The notes beneath the pieces are model-generated. The model was not told the DNA's origin. It worked only from the letters and a program-made list of their open reading frames with translations, and ran no database searches. From Sphagnum magellanicum (lineage: Eukaryota; Streptophyta; Sphagnopsida; Sphagnales; Sphagnaceae), in assembly GCA_021904315.1 (NCBI GenBank), contig CM038907.1, positions 19,785,223 through 19,849,222 on the forward strand: a DNA stretch of 64,000 bases. The letters are read 5' to 3'. The translations under genes and the position numbers were made by a program. Each line of letters starts with the position of its first letter. The stretch's first letter is position 1. Positions 9,991-46,982 of the stretch are shown in pieces.

Positions 9991-12600
9991 TTGGAACTCT
10001 ATAAGCTTAATCACCTAAATAACATTTCATTTTTGTTCTTATAATGTTGACTTTTTCTCAAATCATGCCTTGATTGTCAAATTCCATAATGTCAAAGACA
10101 CCCCAAACATAAGGCCTTTGCCCAAATGTAAGGCCAAGATTAGGCACACCAAGGTGACTCAAAAACAACAAATGAGTCCATTTGACCTAAAAATAAGGGT
10201 CAAAAACACAAAACCATTGGATACCTTCCTTTTAAATCTTTTTTTAGGAACTATGTTTTATCCACCATTTTTAATACTCTATACAACACTCTTGATGGAG
10301 ACACTTTAATCAAACTTGATTTTTTTGATATTGCAAAACACTTTACAAAATCCTAATAATTCTAACCCCCCAAAAGTACATGAACATGCATATTCACTCT
10401 TGTAATGACACTTTCAATAAAAAAAATTGTTTCCATTTCAATCACACAACTTACAATAAAATACATTAAATGTACATGGATGAATATTTCAAAACTTTAA
10501 TACCATTTACAAATTTTTGGTTAGAATAAATGGATTGTAACCTCAAATGTTTCACATATTTGAAAGTCCACCCTAAACCTTAAAATGGTCTTTTTTTTTT
10601 TTTTAATGAACTTCTTAAATATATATATATAAATAATTCATATTTATCATTTTTAATACATTAATTTATTAATTGGAATTAGGAAACATTCATTAACTTG
10701 GGAGTCTAATTTTTTTTCCTTGTTACAAAAAAAAATAGACAGTTAATGTGCCCTTTCCCAAGCTCTAACAACAATTAATGTGGAGAATTTTATGGATTGT
10801 GAGGTGGTGGAGCATATTGACTAGGGCAATGGGAACAAGTTGCCATGTTGACCATAATGTTCAAAGGTTGCAAAAGATAATCATAAAGCAAAAAGCTCAA
10901 AGAATGTGCCCTACATGCTCAAGCCTAAGCTACTACAAACATGCAACTACCACATTTAATTAGAAAATTGAAATCTTGTAGTATCAATTAGCCTACTAAC
11001 TATTCACCACATTTGAAAAGCTTATCATCATGGGCAAAACACATGAATGTTTGTGGAGGAGTGAAAAGTTTGACAAGCTTCAATGATGAATGCTTGTAAT
11101 CCACCATTACACACATCATGGGCCATGATTTGGCGATAGTAATTGTGTGAAATATGTTTTTTCAAAAGTTTGATTATTTGAACTTAAATGTTGTGCACCT
11201 AATACATGTTTGAAACACACATAAGTAGAATGCAAAAAATGTTATGTGGATCAAAACTTTCCATCCTACTTTCATATATGTTTAAATGCATGATACCCAT
11301 GTCTATACATTATGAACCTATGAAAAAATAAATTCTAGATGATTACTATTGCCAAATCATAACTCATGAAGTTTCTGATGACACCCTTAGTGTTAAAACT
11401 ATCAACCTAAACATATAGACATCATCATTAATTGGATAATCCCCCTAGCCACATGAATCAACACCTTCCCCCTTCCCATGCATAATAGTTTGTTTCACCC
11501 CCCATGCCACCTTATATAATTTCTTTCAATAAAATCTTAAGCCTTTGAATGTCCATGGATGCTTAATCAAATCATTTCAAAATGAAAAATGAATATTATG
11601 ATTTTCTAGTTCTTTCATGGGTTCCCTGTATGAATGTAACATTAATCCATTACACATTTTTATTACCAATTCATGTACAAAAAACCCTCCAAGTTGGTCA
11701 ATCCTTCATCTTCAATCACCATATTATGCACTATGAAACATGTTGTGCATGACAATGTTAATGCCTACAACTATCATTGTCTACAAACACACATCACAAA
11801 TGACATAAACCACATTAATGGTGCATCATTTCCAAACCAAAATATGACTCACCAACAAAAAAATAAGGATCCAAACCCAAAACACAAAAATCTACAAAGG
11901 AAAAAAATCATGTGTTATAGAATTTCAAATCACCAAAAATGATTTGAAAACCCACGACTTGGGATTATGTTCCTAAAATTAAATAACTCAAACCTCATTC
12001 ACACATGAAATAATTCCAATTAAAAAAATAATTAACTACAATATCTTAGTTTAACATTAACATGATTAAAACCTAAATGGGTACTAAAACTATCAATCTT
12101 GGCAAATGTTTTGTTTACAATGTCAGCACCGACAACTATTGTTGTCCACATACACATGTCACAAAAGATAGAAACAACCTTAATAGCACATCATTTCCAA
12201 ATTGACCCCCTATATGAGGTTAAGGTCCCCCTGAACCAAATTCCAATGTAAGGAATCCATGGACAATAAATCCATCAAAAATGAACACATTGGTTCTAAA
12301 GTGAAAAGTTCATAGGTTGGATGTAAATGTGAGCCCCGTCCTTAATCACCTTACTATAATCCCTCCAAATCCTTTACCAAATGTGTATTGCCATGGAGAA
12401 AACCTTAGGTTATTCCCTATTATTTAATTTCAAAAAAACCTAATTTTATTGTGCATTGAAAGCAAAACCATTTTCCAACAAGTACTTCATTCAAGGGTGG
12501 CATTAACCATCCCATATGTTAATTTCTTAAACATCGATCACACACCAACATAATTATTGTTTTTGAAGATTGCCCACACAACATACATCAAAGGTCAGCA
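9991..12600. other. AT-rich intergenic DNA with one direct repeat pair
   Basis: No gene recognised. A block of about 110 bases (core ACAAACACACATCACAAA and GCATCATTTCCAAA) at about 11,725-11,840 recurs diverged at 12,100-12,215 in the same orientation. This region should contain the 3' end of the minus-strand retrotransposon at 12.6-19.4 kb, but I could not recognise an LTR. Confidence 0.45.
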
Positions 12601-13640
12601 AGGACAATAACCAAAGAGGGGTCAATTTGGCCATCCACATGAGGAAAATGACACAACTTAAAATTTTGCATGCGATCTTTCCATGTCTAACCATCTTGGC
12701 CCTGCAACAACAATACTTCAAAAGGTTTGATACCTTTTACACACGCAAAATAATATATCTTGCAATCACATCCAACATAGTTACTGTCATTTGCTACATG
12801 TATACATAATCTCTTGGCTTGAATTTGAAATCTTGAAGTTGATAACCTCTTCCTCAAATAATGACGTAACATAATGTATCCTAATGTTAAATAGTTTGCA
12901 ATTTTTCTTTAACCATTAACATTACACGTTGGAACAAAGTTGTTCATTAATTACATGTTTGAAATCATACATTTGGATCATCCAAATTAATTATTTCCAT
13001 CACATCGCATCAAATTGAGGCCAATGGCCTAAATTCACAACTAAATAATATAAAATATGGTGAAAAGGATGCAAGAGAAGTTTGTTGATTTAACCTATAT
13101 CCCATGGTTAATTATGGTAATTACAAGTCCCAACATTTGGTATGGCCATTTTGAACCCCATACTTTTGTAAATTTTGTTTCACCATCTACATCATTTGTA
13201 CAACTAACCTATTTGCTTTAGGATGGGTTCGTGAAACTATGCAATGATCAATCAATGTTTTTTCACATAACTTTTGAAACTCCCCACATAATTTTGTACC
13301 TTAGTTAGTGAATACTTGAGCTAAAACACCAAACTTGTTAAAGACCATATCATAAAACACATAAGCAACACTTTCATTGATGTGATCCAACAACAACACC
13401 AATTCTAACCACTTCAAAAAATGTTTGATGATAACTATAGAATATAAATTTTGTTAGACTATTAAACTTGATGGGCCAACAAAATCCAAACTTCATTGAC
13501 ACCCAAGCCCAACGATGGGCAATGACTATAAATGAAGTGAAGGTGCATCAAATGACACCTAGACTCAATCACACACCATACATTGATAAACAAATTGTTG
13601 AACATGTAGTTGCATCCACTACCATTGATATTATGTTTGG
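12600..13640 (-). pseudogene. Integrase core and C-terminal domain of the old Ty3/gypsy element
   Basis: Minus-strand reading gives LDFVGPS at about 13,490-13,470, the usual start of the retroviral integrase core. It is followed by ESVAYVFYDMVFNKFGVLAQ and VFTN.GTKLCGEFQKLCEK; Asn stands where the second catalytic Asp is expected (TD.GTEF in relatives) and a stop follows it. Next come KYGVQNGH, LTMGYRL and SLASFSPYFILF, which are the conserved post-core motifs. At 12,872-12,687 a 61-codon open stretch (LRHYLRKRLSTSRFQIQAK, ending LLLQGQDG) fits the C-terminal GPY/F-like module. Transcribed last in the element. The HHCC zinc region is mostly lost at the junction with the inserted element. Confidence 0.78.
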
Positions 13641-13646
13641 AACAAA

Positions 13647-14785
13647 CACTAGTACAAAAGTGGGGTGCAGTTCATTAATCTAAATCACTATGGGACCTTA
13701 AAGTAAAATAAGTTCACCCCACCTTAATCATTTCACCTTGCTTAAAGTTATGTCACTATAGGATCATTATGTAATCATTGTGTTTCATTACTAATTGACT
13801 AGACTACTAATTGAAATAATTCATTATATTAAATATGTTTCTTTTTATGTTGTTGTTGGAAATACCATAGGTTACTATACCTTAAGCCTTAGGTTATTTT
13901 ACCCTACATTATTTTTAATTATTTTACCCTAGGTTATTTTGCACTATTCATTATTATTTTGCATTAAAGTATTATAGGTTATTTAAACCTAATTTATTTT
14001 TATATTATATTTTATTCCAACCTAGGTTATTTTAATTTATTTTACCTTAGGTTATTCCTAAATAATTTAAGTTATTCCACTTTAAGCTATTTTGAGTTAT
14101 TTTAAGTTATTTCACCCTAGGTTATTCTAAGTCATTTTAGGTTATTATATCCAAAGTTGTTTTTTATTATTATAAGATATTCCACCTTAAACTATTTTAT
14201 GTTATTTCATCCTAAACTATTATAGGTTATTCCACCTTAGGCTACCAGTCAACTATTATACCTTAGGTTATTACAAATCGTTTAAAATTATTCCAAAGTA
14301 TTATACTTTAAGCTATTATAAGTTACCCCCTAAAATAACCTAAAGTTATAACATGTAACAACCTAAGGTTACATAACTTAAAGTAATTGAGAATGGTTTA
14401 GGATAAAATAACCTAAAACAACCCAGGGAATAATTTAGAATAGCCGATAATAACCTAAGGTACAATAACCTATAATAACCAAAAATAATTTAGGGTAAAA
14501 TAAGTTTTTGAAAACCAAAATAAAATAACCTAAAATAAAATTTTAAATAGCCTAAGGTGGAATAACCTAAAATAAAGAAAGGACTAAGGTAGAATAATTG
14601 AAAATAATATAATGCGAAATAGTTTTAAATAACCTATGATGGATTAGTTTATAATAATTGAAAATAAATTAAAATAGCATAGGGTGGAATAACTAAAAAT
14701 ATCCAAAATAGCCCAAAGGTGGAATAACTTAAAATTTAGTTTAAGGTACAATAACTTAGAATAGCCAAAGTTGAAATAATTAACA
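13647..14785. mobile_element. CACTA-like non-autonomous element with palindromic low-complexity core (copy 1)
   Basis: The left end reads CACTAGTACAAAAGTGGGG, which matches the CACTA terminus and the left ends at 34,898 and 37,431. After a 200-base unique arm, 13,850-14,320 consists of degenerate TTAGGTTATT-type units. At about 14,325 the strand sense switches and 14,330-14,780 consists of the complementary AATAACCTAA-type units, so the core is a long imperfect inverted repeat. The right terminus seen in the other copies is not recognisable. It sits inside the integrase portion of the old Ty3/gypsy element and so inserted later. Confidence 0.65.
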
Positions 14786-14789
14786 TTAA

Positions 14790-15210
14790 CACCATATTGC
14801 ACATGCTTGCAATTATGTAACAATAAGTGCATCATCATGTATATTTAAGGCTCCATCACCATTCGATTCGATGTTTGCATCATGGGACTCCCAATTACCC
14901 AAGTTACTATAAAAAATTACATCCCCCAAACACCATAACAAGGTACATAGGTATGTAAAGGCATGTTAACCCATAAGTACTTCCAAATCCACATCACCAT
15001 GCCAATGAACCCTAGGCGTATATCTTCATTGGAACTTGGGTTCCAATTTAAACATCAAGATCCCAATTAACCCTACTAACCTTGTGAACTATATCAAAGT
15101 CATAATTTGATCAAATAAGTGCCCATTTGGCTAAATTTTCTTATCAAATAATATGATTGCATTAAAATTTTATGATGCTAGTGATCTATAACAAAAATGA
15201 ATGGGCAACC
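14790..15210 (-). pseudogene. RNase H C-terminus and integrase N-terminal linker of the old Ty3/gypsy element
   Basis: Reading the minus strand from 15,200, LVIDH corresponds to the TDH.PL motif at the end of Ty3/gypsy RNase H. It is followed by KFSQMGTYL (relatives: gKLARWal.L) and, after stops, NPSSNEDIR (relatives: LSRNP). Next is a linker WHGDVDLEVLMG and, at about 14,830-14,800, HDDALIVT, a conserved patch before the HHCC zinc domain in this element group. Stops occur throughout. The frame is then cut by the inserted CACTA-like element. Confidence 0.65.
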
Positions 15211-15499
15211 ATAAAAATAACACCATAATGATGGATCTTTTAAACAAAAACAAGGCATTACCTTTCATGCAAATTATATTTGGCTTTTATTTTGTTAGAC
15301 TAACTAACACATGCCACCATGAAATCTCAACCACATCATCAAGTTGAATAAAATGGGCCCTAGCCCTAGAGTATTCCATTAATATGTAACTCAAAAGACC
15401 ATTCCCATATGGGTTTTCACATAATGGGAATCGATGTGAACTTAAACCTTCAATTTTTGAAAAGTTTATTCTTGTGCCTTGAACCTCAAATGTATTCTG

Positions 15500-16200
15500 G
15501 ATCAATCTACATTAGCTAGGTCAAAGGTTCAACAATGTTGTTAAATCTTTTGACGAATCTTTGGTAATAATTACACAAGCTCAAGAAAGCTCATAACCAA
15601 CTAACATTTGATGGTTGGGGAATTTGTGAAACAACTTCAGCCTTGGCTTTTCAAACCCCCAATTGACCTAAATAAATCATATGACTTGAGAATTCCACTT
15701 GAGTATGAAAAAGGTATATGCTAAGATGCAACTTAAGGTTATGTCCCTTAAGTCTTTTAAACACTTCCTACAAGTGTTGCATGTGATCCCTTGGAGTTAT
15801 GTTTAAAATTATAATATCATCAATGTAGCATTTAGTAAAACCAAAACCCATTAAAACCCAATCCATAACTCATTGGAATTTTATACCGTCGTTTTTAAAA
15901 CCAAAAAGCAAGAATCTCCAATGATGTTAACAATCTTCCCATGTCCATCCATCCGCCAAAATGTCATCTTGACCTTGTCACCTTCCCCCTTAATGGTAAT
16001 TAACGATAGCCAAAGTGCAAGTCCAAAGTATTAAAAACTTTGGCCCACCCAAGGGCATCAAAGATTTCCTTAAATAAGGGCATGGCATATTTGTCCAAGC
16101 AAATCCATTTGTTCATCAAATGGTAATCCTTGCATATGTGGCATTTGGTCCAATTGATAAAATTATCTTTCTTGGTTAGCGTCATTATTGTGTAAGCATA
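15500..16200 (-). pseudogene. Reverse transcriptase of the old Ty3/gypsy element
   Basis: A 61-codon open stretch at 16,185-16,000 gives DKYAMPLFKEIFDALGWAKV then FNTLDLHFGY, the classic Ty3/gypsy RT block 2-3 (DKYPMPL..IFD.L..AK.FS.LDL.SGYHQ). Further on, EGDKVKMTFWRMDGHGK and the palm motif CYIDDII lie near 15,827-15,813. They are followed by DHMQHL.EVFKRLKGHNLKL, and by AFLSLCNYYQRFVKRF at about 15,600-15,540 (thumb/connection). The catalytic Asp pair is still encoded, but stops and frame changes make the protein non-functional. The order and spacing are normal for Ty3/gypsy pol. Confidence 0.85.
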
Positions 16201-16779
16201 TTCAACCTTGGATAATCTACCAAACTAGCATCCATTGAAACTCTAATCCCCAAGCTTGAACCAAGGCTCTTTCCATGCTTTTTCCACATCACCAAGATTG
16301 TAAGTTCAATTGAAAATTTAATTTTCATCCTCCATTATAATTTGGACCTCTTGTCCTTTCAACCAACCTAATTCTTTCAAGTTGAAGGCAAAACCTTCAA
16401 TGCGATCATGTAGAAATCATCTTGTTTTACACGTCTCAATTTATATAATTGTTAAAACAATATATGGTTCCCATGTTTTTACATTCATTTATTCATTGGG
16501 CTAGGATGAAAAATTATCCATGTTGCTCAAAGTCGATGAAAATGTTGCTTATGATTATTATGCATGAAATGGGGAGGTGCTAGATTGTTCTAGCACCCCC
16601 ACATTATTGACATCCCTCCCAACATCCATACATGCCCCTTAGCATTCATGATTGCACAACTTCCAAGGATGTATAACTTGAATTGTTCTAATATTGCCCC
16701 CACTTGCATTGATAAAGTTATCATAGTTGGAGGTGCAACATGTGATAACTTGGGTGGAATGGGTGTGTGTGATTGGGAA

Positions 16780-18240
16780 AAACATCTTTGTTCTATTAGT
16801 AATAAACTAAGCATCCAAATGAGGTAGTTATGGTTCATAACTTGCCCCAAATATGCTTGCAAGGTTTTTTGGAAATGCTTAACATGGTTAAGGTGCCAAT
16901 TTGGAACTTCATGGCATGTTCCCTTAATTTCATTAACATTTGATACTTCCACGAGGCAAAGATTCAATACCTCTTACCATGTCAATGTCTCCTAAGTCCA
17001 ATTAATATGAAATGTATAAAAAATGATTCATATTTATGATATATATTTGTATAGGAAACTAATACAAAAAAAAAGACCAAATTCATGACCATATTTTGGT
17101 CTTTGGACTTTTAAACTTGTGTTCCATCATGTGTTGAAATCCATACATGTTTTAAAATGGATTCGTAACACTTTGAATATTAAATCAAATGTCTTATGGT
17201 ATTCCACCATATGTTATATGACTAAAATGAAATCAAAAAATATTATTGGGGATGTGATTGCAAATGGAAGTAATCATTTAGGTAGTTTTAAAGCCCCAAA
17301 AATGTGGGAATTCATTAACCCATTTTCAATGTGAAAATTTTGAATTTGATCGAAGTTTCTTCATTCAAAATATTCAATAATGCATTAGGAAAGGAGGGCA
17401 ATAGATAGTTCTTGCAAAAAAATGATTTTAGGTTGATGGACATATTTATTGTGAAGGTGTTCATAACACTAAAAACAATCAAAAAATGGACTCCTATTGT
17501 GCCACTTGGTCCACCTTAGCTTGCAACTATACATGAATTGGAATCCCAAATCATCCTTTGGGCCTCCATCCCAAAACACACAAGAACATCAAATTCAAAA
17601 ATGTATGTAAGGTTATTTGTGGAAAGCTATTATTATTGACCATTGCCAAAAGTGATCAATCATCATGACAAACTACACATGATTGGAATCCTTGATCTAA
17701 TATGTCATCCACAAAGCATGTGGGTGACCTCAACATGAATTGATGTGCTCTTTCGATCACCTGTGGTGGTGTTAAGTTTGTCGTATCCACCAAAATTGAT
17801 GGGCTCATGAACCAATTGTTGCAACATCCATTTGCATTAGTTCATCGATCCAAGCATTGATCTATTGCCATCTTGTCTTGTCAAAATAACTAGATGAAAA
17901 TCTCCCAATGGTGGAACATTTTCCAACAAATATTCACATGACAACATTTATCCAACATGTAGATATTGTAAAATTTGGATCAATTTGCAAAATAAACATG
18001 ATTTAAGGATTGAAAGTCCTTACCCTATACCAACGTGTGAAAGACCTTGACATGACAATCTTGGGCAAATCCAATGTCCTTAATAATGTGATGTTCAAAA
18101 GGCAACATTAAAGATCTTAAGTCATCGACATTGGCAACAAATTAGGGTATCTTTGTTGCACAACAACACAATGTGGCATATGGAGGTTTTCCTAGCCTAT
18201 GGATCTTTCTCCATGTAGTGGTATCATCAAACCTTGATAT
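16780..18240 (-). pseudogene. Cytosine-C5 DNA methyltransferase relic inside the retrotransposon
   Basis: Between protease and RT the minus strand reads, in order: QQRYPNLLP (about 18,155-18,130); SCQG at 18,055-18,044, matching motif IV PCQG with the catalytic Cys codon at 18,052-18,050; then, 43 codons later in the same frame, LLENVPPLGD at 17,929-17,900, matching motif VI ENV. Next is GS.AHQFWWI at about 17,813-17,784, matching motif VIII (R.HRxRW type), where the Arg position is now TGA. FVDDILDQG follows at 17,713-17,687. Finally EVSNVNE and LGQVMNHNYLIWM (16,850-16,812) correspond to motifs IX and X. In C5 methyltransferases the PCQ Cys attacks C6 of cytosine and the ENV Glu contacts the base; the 43-residue spacing fits. 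Motif I (FGG) is not clear; MFGHNIV near 18,230 may be its remnant. Stops and indels make it dead. Such domains have been reported in retrotransposons of charophytes and dinoflagellates. Confidence 0.75.
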
Positions 18241-18653
18241 AAGATCACAATATTGTGGCCAAACATGAACTAATGCCTTTAAACACTTTTAATAGGCATA
18301 TTTGTCTTTGGGAATGCGCCATTGGATGACCATGGTGTCCAATGGGTTCAATCTTGGTGGCCCATTACCAGCATCCATGAATAATTGCGGGCTTGGTGAT
18401 GGTAGAATGTGCCAAACTTGATGAATGTAATGGTTGGCTACCACTTCCAATTCTAACAACGTACCCCGATGGTGGCATGGGATCCAATGTAGAAATCAAA
18501 ATCAATGGCATTCCATTTGCAAACCCCCAACATCATCAACCCAATACAATGGGATTCATCATATTGATCATGGATGTTGCCCACCAATAGATCCAAATCA
18601 TGGAAAAACCCTATTTAAATTTAGCCAACATAGTTGACTTATTAAGATCTCTT

Positions 18654-18675
18654 CCCCCCCCCCCCCCCCCCCCCC
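18654..18675. repeat. Poly-C tract (22 bases)
   Basis: An uninterrupted C run on the plus strand, between the protease and methyltransferase relics. Because it is a homopolymer, its exact length may be a sequencing approximation. Confidence 0.8.
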
Positions 18676-18734
18676 AAATCTCATTAGCAATGAAGCCTTA
18701 TGGGTAGTTCTTAATTACCATCCTAGTTAATAGT

Positions 18735-19200
18735 ACGTGGTTTCTTCCAAAATATCAATTGTAACCCCAAGGGGATACAAAACAACTTCTCCAACTAATA
18801 TGTCATAAAACATGGCATGTGTAACCACATTTTGAGCCCACATTCTAATATAATTTGTTAATGTTTTGCCTGATTGAATTGAATCATAATCTTTCATTTA
18901 ATTAATCCCCTAGCCTTATATGGTCCACCCATTGATGTCAAAAATTTGTAGGGGCATGGTTAAAGATTAGCATCAATAAATCCAAAACCCTCAACTATTA
19001 CCTTATTCAACATCAAAGGTTGAGCACCTAAATCTACCAAAATCTTCTAGGGTTAATATATTCATGTTATCACCCCTTTCAATTGAAAAACCTTTTTTTC
19101 ATTATGCACTACCACCACACCAAGAACAAATGCTATCCTATTGATGACTAGATGTGCTAAAAGGTCATGAAACTTGGGCATAACTACATGCCAAGATTCA
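18735..19200 (-). pseudogene. Aspartic protease of the old Ty3/gypsy element
   Basis: The minus strand gives ILVDLGAQPLMLNKVIVEGF with the active-site Asp codon at 19,034-19,032, in a D-L-G-A context (relatives: DSGA or DTGA). It continues with DANL.PCPYKFLTSMGGPYK and then, at about 18,850-18,745, MWAQNVVTHAMFYDILVG and VVLYPLGVTIDILEE, the C-terminal flap and hydrophobic core of retropepsins in this group. Upstream, VESWHVVMPKFHDLLAHLV (19,190-19,130) is the linker from gag. Stops are present. It is the last domain before the methyltransferase relic. Confidence 0.75.
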
Positions 19201-19450
19201 ACTTTTGACACCTTTATCTAATTGATTCAAAAATATGTTGGGGAATTATAATTGGTATTGAAGGGTCTTCCAATGTTACCACTTTCCTTGGTATTCCCCC
19301 ACCCTCACACAAAATGGTCACCATGCAAAACATTGCTACTAGTTGGATGCCAAAGATAACCAATGTTTTCATGAAAAACAATGGTGCTTGGTAAACTATT
19401 GTTGCCAACCCCATCAAACTAATTGGCGTTGTAGTTCTAAAGTGGAATTA

Positions 19451-41693: not shown

Positions 41694-43516
41694 TCAATCA
41701 GGAGGAACATAGTAAATCTATAGGTCCCTGCGAGACCTTTCCCACCGTCGTCCATCAGCATCATGGACAACACAGATCCGGCACCCTTCTTCGAAGTCGA
41801 AATCTCCCTTACCATCAGCATGCCCTATGAACTGGTAAGGGCCTTCCCAGCTGGCACTGAGCGCCCTTCTTTTGCCCGGAATCTTCATTTTTATCATAGA
41901 AACCCCTGCAACCAATCCTTCAAACAAATGCTTGCCTGCTCGGTTCGCGTATGTACCCCTCTGCTTCTTCTGTGCTTGGCCAACGTTAAGTAATATGTCC
42001 TTGTGTATACTGGCGATCAGTTTGACTTTCTCCAGGAATTGCTCAGCAGCGTTCTCCACAATGGAGGAATCATCAATCGCATCGGTCAGGGTGTTCAAGT
42101 GATTGTCCGCCCTGAGTCAGGGTGATCGACCAGTGAGGATCATGTACGGAGAAAGCTTCGTGCTTGCCTGCACTCCACATCGATAACCAAATAAAACTTT
42201 GGCAAGGTGATCATCCCAACAATTTGTGTTAGCCGGGTCAGCAACCAAAACAGTAATTCCATGTTTGAATGTCTTGATCATCCTCTCGGCCATCCCATTG
42301 CATTGTGGCCACTGAGGTGCAGTGCGCTGGTGGTGTATGGCATAATCCCTGCACATAGCTTCAAATTCGGCATCCCACTCACCCCCATTGTCAATGAGAA
42401 CAAACCTGGGAACCCCATACCTGCAAATCAGGTCGTCTTCCAAAAACCTGGTAGCACTCTTGGCCCCATGGTCAGCCACTGCTTTGGCTTCGCACCACTT
42501 CGAGTAGTGGTCGATCGCCACAAGGATATACTTGTTGCCCGCACTTGTCTTGGGTAGGGGACCAGCCGTGTCCAAAGAGATTCGATGAAATAGGTCACAA
42601 ATCGGGATGCTCTTTAGACGTTCGTCTCCAGAACGGATGCTTCCCTCACTCCTTACCAGCTGACATTGCTGGCAAGTTCTGACCATCTTTTTCACGCATT
42701 CAGTGCGATTGCTCCAGAAGTACCTCTGACATATTTCTGCCAGGGTCCTTTGTTCCCCAAAATGCCCCAGGTCCTTGTGCATTTGGGTCACTAATTCCAT
42801 GCGTTCTTCAGGTTTGGGTACACACAACCCTTTGAAGTATAATTTTCCTTCCTTCCAGCAATAATGTCTTGCCCGTTTCCGGACTCTCCTCTTTTCCTGA
42901 GAACTGACTTCGTCAGGGACAGAACCCTCTCTGAGCCATCCCATACACATTGTATCTTCCCAGATGTCTGTTTGGTTCGAGTCAACAGCACCAGCTTCCT
43001 CAGACCTCACGTTGCTGTCCTGATGTGCATCATTATCCATCAGTCCTTGGGCAGCAAGTATCAGTTCCAACTGCTGCTCCTTGTTATAGTACTTTGTTCC
43101 TCCTCTACAGACGATCTGTTTGCCCTTGGAGGATTCCGAGTGCGAGATCTCATCATCTCCTGTTGCTTCGGGGCCTTCATCGGACGAGTCATCTTCTTCA
43201 TCCGTTAGTACTTCCAGCATGCATAGTTGTTGCGGTTCTGGTCTTTGCCTGTGGTTAATGCCAAAACAGCATTCATGGTGCTGCCTCACCACTGCTGTTT
43301 GCCTCCTTAGACCAAGCCATTCCGACTGCCTGCCAAACTGGACAAAGAATATTCCTCCTGTCATGACAACTGAGTTTCCTGGCCCGGAACTGACGTCTCG
43401 GATTTCTTCACAGAAATCATCATCCTCCTGCGCTTCCCCGACTGGGTTTCGGCTTAGCGCGTCCACATTAGTGTGTTTCATTCCAGGTCGATGCAGGATT
43501 TTGAAGCTGAAATCCT
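41694..43516 (-). pseudogene. Integrase (pol C-terminal part) of the young Ty3/gypsy element
   Basis: Open from MKHTNVDALSRNP (43,481) to a TGA at 42,119-42,117, then in the same frame to a TAG at 41,720-41,718, with the probable natural end a TGA at 41,696-41,694. After the end of RNase H there is an acidic linker. The zinc domain follows: H-KDLG-H, then CQQC about 30 residues later. The core carries the catalytic triad: Asp in DTAGP (codon near 42,572), Asp in LIDNGGEW and Glu in GMAERMIKTF (near 42,287), spaced by 59 and 34 residues. The C-terminal GPY/F module reads SWEGPYQFIGH. The tail ends in ERSRRDL without a chromodomain. Integrase would join the cDNA to host DNA. Both internal stops are single transitions from Arg or Gln codons. 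Confidence 0.9.
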
Positions 43517-45423
43517 ACAGTAGGTCTATCCAGCGTCCCCTCCTTCCATTCGCATCAGAGACAGTCGCTAACCACTCCAACGGCTTATGATCTGTCCTTA
43601 AGGTGAAATGTGTACGATGGAGGTACTGTCTGAAGTGCATAACATTCTCCTTCCATAGGATGGAATCTCCTTTGCGCAGAGGTCAGTCCCTTGCTGGTGT
43701 ATGCTATGACTCTTTCCATCCTTCCGTCCCTCTGAGAGAGGATGGCACCGACTCCTTTCGGTGACCAGTCTACGTCTAGACAAAATGGCTTAGTGAAGTC
43801 AGGTCGAGTGAGAACAGGGGCAGCTACGAGAGCGCTTTTCAGGGTTTCAAAAGCCCTCTGACAACCCAAGTCCCACACAAAAGAAACATCCCTCTTTGTC
43901 AATTCAAATAAAGGAACAGCCAACCGAGAATATCCCCGAACATAGTTTCGGTAGTACCCAGTCAGTCCTAGAAAAGATCGGACATTTGTGACTGTCCTTG
44001 GTATAGGAAAATGTGCAACAGCAGTAACCTTCCCAGGGTCTGGTCTAGTGCCTTCTTGACTGACCACGTGCCCTAGGAACGTAATGCTCTTAGCAGCAAA
44101 ATAGCATTTCCCTGGATTGAGTTTTAGGTTCACTTCCCTTAGCTTAGGGAATACTGCCTCCAAGTGCCGGAGATGGTCCTCCCAACACTCGCTGTGGACA
44201 TTGAGGTCGTCCACGAACACTTTTAGAAACTTGTCACCCAATTCTTTGAATACCAAAGACATGGTTCTGGTAAAGGTGCTTGTTGCATTCTTGATAGCGA
44301 ACGGCATCACGTTCCAGTCATAGAGCCCTGTCTTGGTAATCAAGGCTGTCTTCTTCACATCCTCCGGAGCCATGCGTATCTGCTAGAACCCGGATTGCAA
44401 GTCCAACGCGGTAAACCAACTGGACCTTCCTAATTGGGAAATGACATCTTCGACTAGAGGCATTGGGAATGAATCCCTTCTAGTTTGCGAATTGAGTGGT
44501 CTATAATCCCCACAGAATCTCATACTCCCGTCTTTCTTCATTGGCAAGGTAACCCTGCAGGCATATTCCGAATTGCTCGGCTTCATCTTGCCCAGTCCTA
44601 CCAATATGTCAATTTGTCGCTTAACCTCAGCTTCCTCCCAGTAGGACAATCATCCAGGAGTCGCCCTACAGGGCACAAATCCCTGAGTGTCAATGGAATG
44701 CTCACCCACTGTGCAGCATCCAAGTTCTCCCTTATTCCAGGCAAATATGTCTCGGTACCTCTCCAACACTCCCCACAGCATTGGTCTTTTGAGCTCATCC
44801 AGGCCTGGATCAATTCGCAGCTTTTCACATATGTCCTCCCACCTCGAATCCTTGTTCGATTCCTTTGTGCCGACAGCTTGGCCCTCTAGAACTTTCCATG
44901 ATGCATTGTCGTCGACTTGTTGAATCTGTAATAGCGTGGGTACCTCAGGATTGGCCAAGCCCGAGAGAGCCTGCCTTTTTCTCTCCTCATCAGCTACCCA
45001 TTCAATCCAATCGGCATAATCGTCAGATTCCCAAATCTCCTCCTCCATGATGCGGTCAGCCTGTTCTTGCAGAGTCAGTTGTAAACTCTGCTCAGGCCCT
45101 TCCTGCTGGATCAATTGCTCCAATTCTGTGTCTTTAAATTCTGTCTCGACACAATCTAACTTGAACACCTGACACTCATCTTCTGAGCCCTCGGATGTAT
45201 CAGAGTTCAAATCTGATGTTTGTACAGCCATTCGTTGCTCCTGAACTCTGTCATCCGTGTGTTGTTGCTCTGCAACGACCTCGACCTCTCCATAATTCCG
45301 TGATTTTATTGGTGGAAGGTCTCTGAATTTGAGGCCTGTAACATATTTACCACGGTCAGAGGTAGTACCTCTACATCTGACCCTGGTCCATGTCTTACCT
45401 AGATCAGTCCACGCTCCACATCA
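43517..45423 (-). pseudogene. Reverse transcriptase and RNase H (pol) of the young Ty3/gypsy element
   Basis: The frame opens at 45,423, overlapping the end of the gag-protease frame, and begins with an acidic spacer of about 170 residues. The RT then reads YRDIFAW, KKDGSMRFCGDYRPLN, FTALDLQSGF, MAPEDVKKTALITKTGLYDW and VFVDDLNVHS, with the catalytic Asp pair at 44,211-44,206. RNase H starts near 43,790 with FCLDVDWSPKGVGAILSQ and ends with TDHKPLEWL in a shifted frame. Stops: TGA at 44,652-44,650, TAG at 44,385-44,383 and TAG at 43,517-43,515. At 43,640-43,632 the codons for ECYAL run directly into those for MHFRQYL in another frame, so several residues are missing. RT-RNase H would make the cDNA. 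The VDDLN form of the YIDD box is uncommon among plant Ty3/gypsy lineages I know. Confidence 0.92.
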
Positions 45424-46982
45424 ACTATCGCTCCTATCTTGATCAGGAAGTCGAGCCCCAGGAGCACATCGTAGCTGTCAGTGTCTACGATCATAAAGGT
45501 CATAGCACACTGCACCCCCCCAGTTTTGACCGACACCTCATCAATCCTTCCCATTGCCTGCGTAATCATCCCAGACGCAGTCTTGTAGGTTTCTGACCCA
45601 GAGACCAAATGCATCATCCCCATTTTTCTGACCACCGCAACGGCCATAACGGACATGGACGCCCCAGTGTCAACCAATCCCTCAATCAAGTAGCCATTAA
45701 TCTCAACAGATAGGTGTAAAGTTTTGCTCCTGTGCGTCTTGTTGACACAAATCCTTCTCAGGTTCGGAGATGCAGACACCAGCGATACCTGTGTCGCCTC
45801 TGTTTCTGCATCCCTTTTTCTTCGAGCAACTTTAACCAAATTCTCCAGCTGCTCTAATTCTCCCGGTATCATCATTACTGTCTCCATTGGAGTCAAGGAA
45901 ACCTTCCCTTTTATAAAATGGGCGAGGATCTTCGACATGATGGAGTTCTCCCGATTCACTGCTCCTCCATCTTCGGCAATCTCAGCTTGTGGTACCACTC
46001 CTGCTGGTGTCAATTCAACCGGCATCCTTCTCCTAGGCACCCGCGTGTATGAGAACACATTCTCATCCCCACAGAGCCTGTTGAGCTGTTGCAACGTCGC
46101 CTCCTCATCATTCAACAGTATCTCTAGGAAATTCGCCGTCCCCGGATGTGCTTTCCCATCCTTATTTCTCTTCCAGCACCTGTCCTCCGAGTGCCCTAGT
46201 CCTGAACAGAAGGAACACTTTATACCGCAATTGTCAGTCCTATGCGACAGACCACATTTGGCACATTTTTGTCGTGGTTCATTTTGCCTTGGACATGATG
46301 CGGCCACATGGTCCCTTCCCTTGCAAACCTGACATTCTTTAGACTGATTGAAAGAAGATGATGGCATGGGATTCGGCAAACCTCCCTTAAAGAAATTGAT
46401 CAATGTATCATTTAGAGTGGCAACCTGATGTTCCATGGTTGCTTCAGCTATTCCCTCCTCTTGTTCCTCCTTGAGAGGCTCGAAGGGGGTCTCTCCTAGC
46501 TCACCTAGTACCCTTTCCACTTCATTGGCTGCTCCAACCAATTCCTCTATATCAGTGAAATTTCTTACCACACATAGTTTCCGTATCTCAGGCCTCAATT
46601 TGGCCAAGAATCTTCTCTTCTGTTCAGCATCTGACGTTCTTCCCTTCCGAAAGAGTCTATCGAGACGCTTGAAATACCTCCGAACCCGCTCTCTGGGTTC
46701 CTGTCGAATGGCATCTAGCTTTGCCCTGATATCATCATCGTCGACATCGCCATACTTCTGCAGTATCAAAGTTCTCAATTCGATCCAGTCAGCAGGGGTC
46801 GGATTTTGCCTCCTGAGCCACTCCCGTGCTCTGCCACGCAGATTAAGTTTGGCAATTTTGAAAAGCTTGACCGCGTCAAGGTCACGCACTTCCGCGGCCA
46901 TTGTGAGCCTTTCGGCCCAATCAGTAACGTCTTCATGCTCACGCCCCTAGAACAGTTCATCCATACCCTGTGGACTCGACAT
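45399..46982 (-). pseudogene. Gag-protease of the young Ty3/gypsy element
   Basis: The probable start is the ATG at 46,982 (MSSPQGMDELF), followed by a TAG at codon 12 (46,949-46,947). The same frame then runs open for 500 codons from 46,901. The capsid region resembles retrotransposon gag (FKIAKLNLRGRAREWLRRQ). Three zinc knuckles follow: CQVCKGRDHVAASC, CAKCGLSHRTDNC and CSFCSGLGHSEDRC, which would bind RNA; one or two are usual. The aspartic protease has the active-site DTGAS with Asp at 45,671-45,669 and a hydrophobic-hydrophobic-Gly motif in YDVLLGLDFL. The frame stops at TAG 45,401-45,399, but conserved-looking sequence continues in frame (VRHGPGSDVEVLPL), so this stop too is a mutation. 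Pol follows in the -1 frame. Confidence 0.9.

Follow-up and report, generated by a model that had tools for sequence, protein, structure and literature searches.

The window, by which we mean the whole stretch of DNA analysed, comprises 64,000 nt of Sphagnum magellanicum (GCA_021904315.1, contig CM038907.1, 19,785,223–19,849,222 of the forward strand). Its minus strand carries a series of retroviral-type domains in decayed form. An aspartic protease remnant of pol (18718–19205) is matched in tblastn by L034 at 19205–18924 and 18828–18718 (E 9e-17) and by a frame of L033 at 19118–18927 and 18828–18718 (E 3e-14). It is followed by the remnant of a C5 methyltransferase of predicted Dnmt3 type, whose N-terminal part (17533–18316) and C-terminal part (16740–16924, the lower end being approximate) are separated by a dispersed repeat (16925–17532, minus strand) that is inserted in the methyltransferase and is not part of the enzyme. 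Next come the remnants of the reverse transcriptase (RT; 15480–16494; tblastn with the L033 RT, E 1.7e-59), which is also recognized directly on the window by Pfam RVT_1 (E 3.4e-7), of RNase H (15054–15470; tblastn with the L033 frame containing RNase H, integrase and PHD finger, E 5e-11), and of the integrase (12731–13648). The latter is matched by L033 at 13645–12731 (E 2.7e-91 jointly with the PHD part, which reaches 12453) and by L035 from 13648; the decayed frames of 13700–12800 gave no Pfam match. A PHD finger 3′ of the integrase (12453–12587) was detected by Pfam in a frame translated with X at stops (PF00628, E 3.9e-6, 27.2 bits against a curated cut-off of 24) and by alignment to L033. 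The paralogues L033, L034, and L035, which form group A, match the window collinearly and on one strand, L033 doing so across the protease (19118–18718), methyltransferase, RT (16494–15480), RNase H (15470–15054), and integrase with its C-terminal part, PHD finger included (13645–12453). In L033, L025, and the window alike, protease, RT, RNase H, and integrase follow each other on one strand in the order found in Ty3/gypsy LTR retrotransposons.

An LTR search within the window found none for this copy, nor did gag give a significant match there; the gag frame of L033 carries a zf-CCHC domain (Pfam). The observed/expected ratio of CpG over 12450–19200 is 0.18–0.20, with CpA and TpG in excess, which is consistent with decay by methylation; the ratio is higher in all the paralogues compared (L024 0.53, L025 0.38, L033 0.27). 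Between the RNase H and integrase remnants, 13895–14750 is an AT-rich array made up of short, diverged repeats that occur in either orientation; it is perhaps a later insertion. The window also holds a second Ty3/gypsy element on its minus strand (41721–46946), with gag-protease, RT-RNase H, and integrase ORFs. None of the five ORFs matches a DNMT, PHD finger, or chromodomain in Pfam, and the RT of this element is 36% identical to that of L033, which makes it a natural contrast within the window.

The segment thus very probably belongs to an inactive, mutated copy of a Ty3/gypsy LTR retrotransposon, from a family whose pol consists of protease, Dnmt3-type methyltransferase, RT, RNase H, integrase, and PHD finger, the methyltransferase having entered pol before the sampled lineages split and having been retained since.

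The methyltransferase remnant and its nested repeat

The preliminary description of this DNA had recognized a C5 methyltransferase between the protease and the RT by a handful of short strings on the minus strand. All of them are present where it had placed them: SCQG (18055) and LLENVPPLGD (17929) share one frame, and AHQFWW (17804), FVDDILD (17715), and LGQVMNH (16850) lie in two other frames. The distance of 43 codons in one frame that had been reported between the first two strings is that between the catalytic Cys (18052) and the motif-VI Glu (17923), and the same spacing is found in L033. With motif I at about 18285, the motif-IV Cys, the motif-VI Glu, the motif VIII-like string at 17804, VDDILD at 17712, and motif X in LGQVMNH, the remnants are ordered as in L033, in agreement with the proposed C5-methyltransferase order. 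The bounds first given to the segment (16780–18240) do enclose methyltransferase remnants, but the enzyme starts further upstream, at motif I, and the middle of the segment (17532–16925) is the nested repeat, a feature that, like the PHD finger, was absent from that description.

The search for PF00145 that had been suggested for these frames fails when run directly: a Pfam scan of three frames of 18240–16590, with X at stops, gave no match (0/3), and a PDB sequence search with one window frame returned no methyltransferase, because the window copy is too mutated. The evidence comes instead from paralogues in the same genome. The L033 methyltransferase, used as a tblastn query, matches the window at 18316–17849 and 17811–17593 with a joint E of about 1e-20. 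In a control with 500 dinucleotide shuffles, the real segment reached 55.1 bits (E 8.5e-22) and the best shuffle 28.1 bits (E 4.6e-4); any forward match was obtained with 494 of the shuffles, and a score comparable to the real one with none (0/500). The motif-X piece, where L033 residues 569–597 align at 16871–16785, is weak when taken alone (E 0.017 and 0.004 in two comparisons). At the DNA level, two further, decayed paralogues resemble the window on both sides of the repeat, L043 with 68% identity over 18539–17533, L044 with 68% over 18519–17533, and both with 67–68% from 16925 onward, the motif-X stretch included. Since these two loci align on both flanks with merely about 29 bp between them, 17532–16925 represents a dispersed repeat that was inserted later and recurs in at least 33 other places of the genome, mostly at 75–82% identity (40 of 253 candidates scored). 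Visual inspection of its last 60 bases showed no terminal inverted repeat.

That random frames of an eroded retrotransposon should mimic methyltransferase motifs by chance, as might be thought from window frames that themselves match nothing in Pfam or the PDB and from motifs spread over three frames, is refuted by the strength of the paralogue match, the shuffles, and the DNA identity on both flanks of the repeat, and keeps practically no probability.

Copy number, age, and selection

Paralogues were sought in 438,994,042 bases of genome sequence in 31 contigs. A PF00145 search gave 124 matches, many of them in frames several hundred codons long, the longest having 2379, and the L033 methyltransferase as query gave at least 123 (122 of 1120 candidates scored). 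When the two lists were merged, with 122 of the 124 PF00145 rows entered, at least 184 distinct match places remained, at least three of which are DRM-like host genes. A listed DNMT match lies 1.0–2.4 kb upstream, on the same strand, at 94 of 150 RT matches (150 of 3960 candidates scored); among the 42 best RT matches, 29 have one and 13 do not. Six of the 56 RT matches lacking a listed DNMT were inspected, chosen mostly for open RT frames and from outside those 13: four have most of the DNMT, one has its C-terminal end, and one has none, and at this last locus the protease was not found either. The placement between protease and RT advanced in the preliminary description is therefore upheld by paralogues of the same genome, those looked at having mostly retained the methyltransferase in the same position, with one fetched RT locus devoid of it.

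This recurrence also disposes of the idea that a host DRM/DNMT3 pseudogene landed by accident in a single retrotransposon copy: DRM-like host genes, as would fit a plant, do exist in the genome (L002, L005, and L041), but they show the rearranged DRM order, as judged by eye, against an unrearranged domain in the element, and the methyltransferase recurs upstream of many RT matches, shares a frame with pol in L025, and is also carried by a contig of different origin (L046, see below), which leaves the idea a vanishing probability.

For a closer comparison, 20 stretches of 9.9 kb were fetched and their ORFs of at least 150 codons compared with the window by tblastn. L037, L038, and L040 were left out because they had no tblastn match to the element methyltransferases, and the 17 loci that had one are taken here as element loci (14 of group B, described below, and three of group A). 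Direct terminal repeats are present in 8 of the 17, with 91.8–99.1% identity and six of them at 98% or more, a count that may be low where a 9.9-kb stretch misses one end; those flanking L024, L029, L030, L033, L036, and L039 measure 287–315 bp. The element had been labelled ancient. This holds for the old window copy but not for the family as a whole, given that the same genome contains LTR pairs with identities reaching 99% and open frames as long as 2379 codons. The methyltransferase block is free of stops in 7 of 12 group B copies and in all three of group A. As to a methyltransferase in the pol frame, for which the preliminary description had looked to genomic paralogues, the domain is in one frame with pol in L025, and the methyltransferase frame of L033 is open.

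The methyltransferase of group B is under purifying selection. Pooled pN/pS values, for which the copy sets differ between domains, the pairs are non-independent, and stop codons were skipped, are 0.20 for the DNMT (12 copies), 0.25 for the RT (12 copies), and 0.145 for a 119-residue PHD region (10 copies), so that methyltransferase and PHD finger are constrained about as much as the RT. In group A, the pairwise values for the methyltransferase (0.27, 1.03, and 0.65) rest on few changes and give no firm estimate of selection, because the pairs are too close.

Methyltransferase class, lineages, and relatives

Compared with the PDB, the L033 methyltransferase is closest to DNMT3A (E 2.3e-9) and DNMT3B (9.5e-7), followed by M.HhaI (6e-4), 4onj (7e-4; entry name: DNA methyltransferase), which we take to be a tobacco DRM, and entries named DRM2 (0.25). 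Its motifs I, IV, VI, VIII, and X are in the normal, unrearranged order; the element runs from I to X, and the DRM order, with VI–X before I–V, is absent from it. On the PDB ranking of L033 and this motif order, the element methyltransferase is assigned to the DNMT3 class. The whole pol frame of L025, from group B, matches PF00145 (E 1.1e-8), and the best 60 of its 112 PDB rows contain no DNMT3, consisting of RT, integrase, and PHD chains. AlphaFold2 run on alignment A1 gave a poor model (mean pLDDT 45.5).

Two lineages are distinguished by their catalytic motifs. Group A has retained PCQG and ENV in its three copies. In group B, the commonest lineage among the loci fetched, motif IV reads ECQG for PCQG (Pro to Glu) and motif VI reads ENT for ENV in 12 of 12 copies scored (L021–L030, L032, and L039, out of 14). 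These same copies retain the catalytic Cys and the motif-VI Glu without exception, the motif I pattern in 11, and the AHxxR of motif VIII in 10. In the window copy these motifs read SCQG and ENV. Its paralogue L044 resembles group A (49%) more closely than group B (36%), which puts the window copy, by sequence resemblance, on the group A side.

The two substitutions make the activity of group B uncertain. Its methyltransferase might be a pseudo-enzyme kept for binding nucleic acid or S-adenosylmethionine, or might have a changed target such as RNA, since both motifs are altered in every copy scored and selection nevertheless maintains the domain; SymbioLINE-Dnmt, as tested, likewise gave no de novo DNA methylation in yeast according to the text of de Mendoza et al. 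(PMC5890265). The retention of the catalytic Cys and motif-VI Glu throughout, and of motifs I and VIII in most copies, speaks against this reading, which we regard as rather unlikely. Whatever its activity, group B with its altered motif lends itself to comparison with group A.

A relative outside the Sphagnum genome was found by scanning genome contigs. L046 (CADCWO010000201.1, 1–7209) is a Gypsy element with DNMT and PHD finger, filed under an uncultured cyanobacterial (Synechococcales) MAG, in whose genome of about 4.8 Mb it is the sole match. One of its frames, open at the 5′ end, contains a protease-like part and the methyltransferase, and the next frame contains RT, RNase H, integrase, and PHD finger; the protease part, with a Pfam match below the cut-off, is 44% identical to the L033 protease. 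Since a Gypsy element with a PHD finger sits here in a cyanobacterial MAG, the contig is most simply taken as a misbinned eukaryotic one. In each of the four regions compared, the highest identity is that between group A and L046. Identities for A–L046, B–L046, and A–B are, respectively, 50, 45, and 42% in the methyltransferase, 64, 47, and 48% in the RT, 67, 56, and 54% in the integrase-PHD region, and 44, 37, and 33% in the protease, the ranking of the other two pairs differing in the RT. The agreement of all four regions on the closest pair, in a comparison of three tips only, fits one capture before group A, group B, and L046 split, which would have been followed by joint descent. Elsewhere, searches of viral contigs and phages with the decayed frames of the window, one of them a frame without the motif strings, returned nothing; with alignment A1 as query, one viral contig (L045) gave a distant match of 29% identity over part, and the genome contigs yielded a Streptomyces match (L047) of 35% identity over 103 residues.

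Proposed working and known systems

Chromoviruses are Ty3/gypsy elements with a chromodomain at the C-terminus of the integrase. By Pfam, no chromodomain was found at that position in the L033, L025, L046, and window frames scanned, and a PHD finger is found there instead, recognized by Pfam 3′ of the integrase in L033, in L025, and directly in the window, and present by tblastn in 17/17 element loci (14 of group B and three of group A). Its nearest solved relatives include the PHD fingers of CHD4, DPF3, PHF21A, ATXR5, KDM5, and BAZ2, several of which bind histone H3 with unmethylated K4. We tentatively propose that this finger, located where chromoviruses carry their chromodomain, directs the integrase towards chromatin in which H3K4 is unmethylated, a specificity suggested by its likeness to the solved fingers. 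The methyltransferase, for its part, has about an even chance of methylating the element's own cDNA or fresh insertion, by analogy with SymbioDIRS-Dnmt3 of dinoflagellates, which is reported to methylate CG sites de novo in yeast (main text of PMC5890265).

Taken together, the two domains could act as a reader–writer pair, sending new copies into silent chromatin, where they would be marked, and lowering both the harm to the host and the persecution of the element, a scheme that we consider speculative. In its fullest form, this would be a land-plant retrotransposon with a self-contained chromatin module, the PHD finger of its integrase as reader and the Dnmt3 in its pol as writer, that picks silent chromatin and methylates its own new copies, with one lineage having also re-tuned its catalytic loop (Glu-Cys for Pro-Cys) to a different, selected activity; so complete a picture is possible, although we would not expect it to hold in all its parts. 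The enzyme might instead disguise the cDNA, or shield it from host attack by deaminases or foreign-DNA sensing, and have no role in placing silent insertions. A disguise of this kind has been proposed for the DIRS elements of dinoflagellates in the text of PMC5890265, and the methyltransferase does adjoin the RT in pol, but the constrained PHD finger after the integrase is left unexplained, and we hold this to be doubtful. Whereas DNA methylation normally acts on transposons, here one of them encodes, by prediction, an enzyme of the de novo type in a land plant. With the PHD finger, the loose notion of self-methylation becomes the concrete reader–writer model, and near-identical LTRs and open frames make the benefit that a retrotransposon draws from methylating DNA approachable in a moss with a reference genome.

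The closest known system is KnitGypsy-Dnmt3 of the charophyte alga Klebsormidium nitens, described in the main text of de Mendoza et al. 2018 (PMC5890265) as an unrearranged Dnmt3 within the Pol ORF of a Gypsy element, in several copies and with the DNMT under purifying selection. Both are Gypsy elements with a Dnmt3 inside Pol; the host is an alga in one case and a land plant in the other, and a figure legend of the same paper gives the algal element a DIRS-like repeat structure, in contrast to the direct terminal repeats of the Sphagnum copies. According to the paper, the acquisition took place independently in the lineage of K. nitens. A single capture in an early streptophyte, shared by both elements, would run against that account, and we give it slightly less than an even chance. 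It would agree with the presence of the same DNMT class in the pol of a Gypsy element on both sides and with L046, which extends the architecture beyond the Sphagnum genome; it is opposed by the difference in repeat structure, and KnitGypsy-Dnmt3 enters this comparison through its published description.

SymbioDIRS-Dnmt3 and SymbioLINE-Dnmt resemble the Sphagnum element in being retrotransposons with a DNMT, but they belong to other retrotransposon classes and are reported, in the same text, as separate captures (PMC5890265). The main text of that paper, figures aside, does not contain the words moss, fern, gymnosperm, or PHD. Retrotransposon-embedded DNMT3 of streptophytes and dinoflagellates is noted, with reference to the 2018 work, in section 5 of a further article (PMC12344493). 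According to a passage of a 2019 paper, land plants lack methylase-encoding transposons, a statement with which the present element contrasts. In the portions of the literature covered by our search, to which subscription papers, preprints, and supplements did not belong, no land-plant case, PHD finger, or altered catalytic motif was reported. A Gypsy element with a Dnmt3 was already known from Klebsormidium; none of the literature covered showed one with a land-plant host, a PHD finger, or the altered catalytic motif that marks group B.

Two better-known systems frame the combination found here. With chromoviruses, the Sphagnum element shares the Ty3/gypsy domain order and a chromatin-reading domain after the integrase, but this domain is a PHD finger instead of a chromodomain, and a DNMT is added. 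Chromovirus clades of mosses were reportedly described by Novikova et al. in 2008. Animal DNMT3A and DNMT3B contain an ADD module, whose PHD-like finger reads H3K4me0. They are the solved methyltransferases closest to that of L033, and in both cases a PHD-type finger belongs to the same gene product as the methyltransferase; in the element, however, the finger comes after the integrase, with no fusion to the DNMT.
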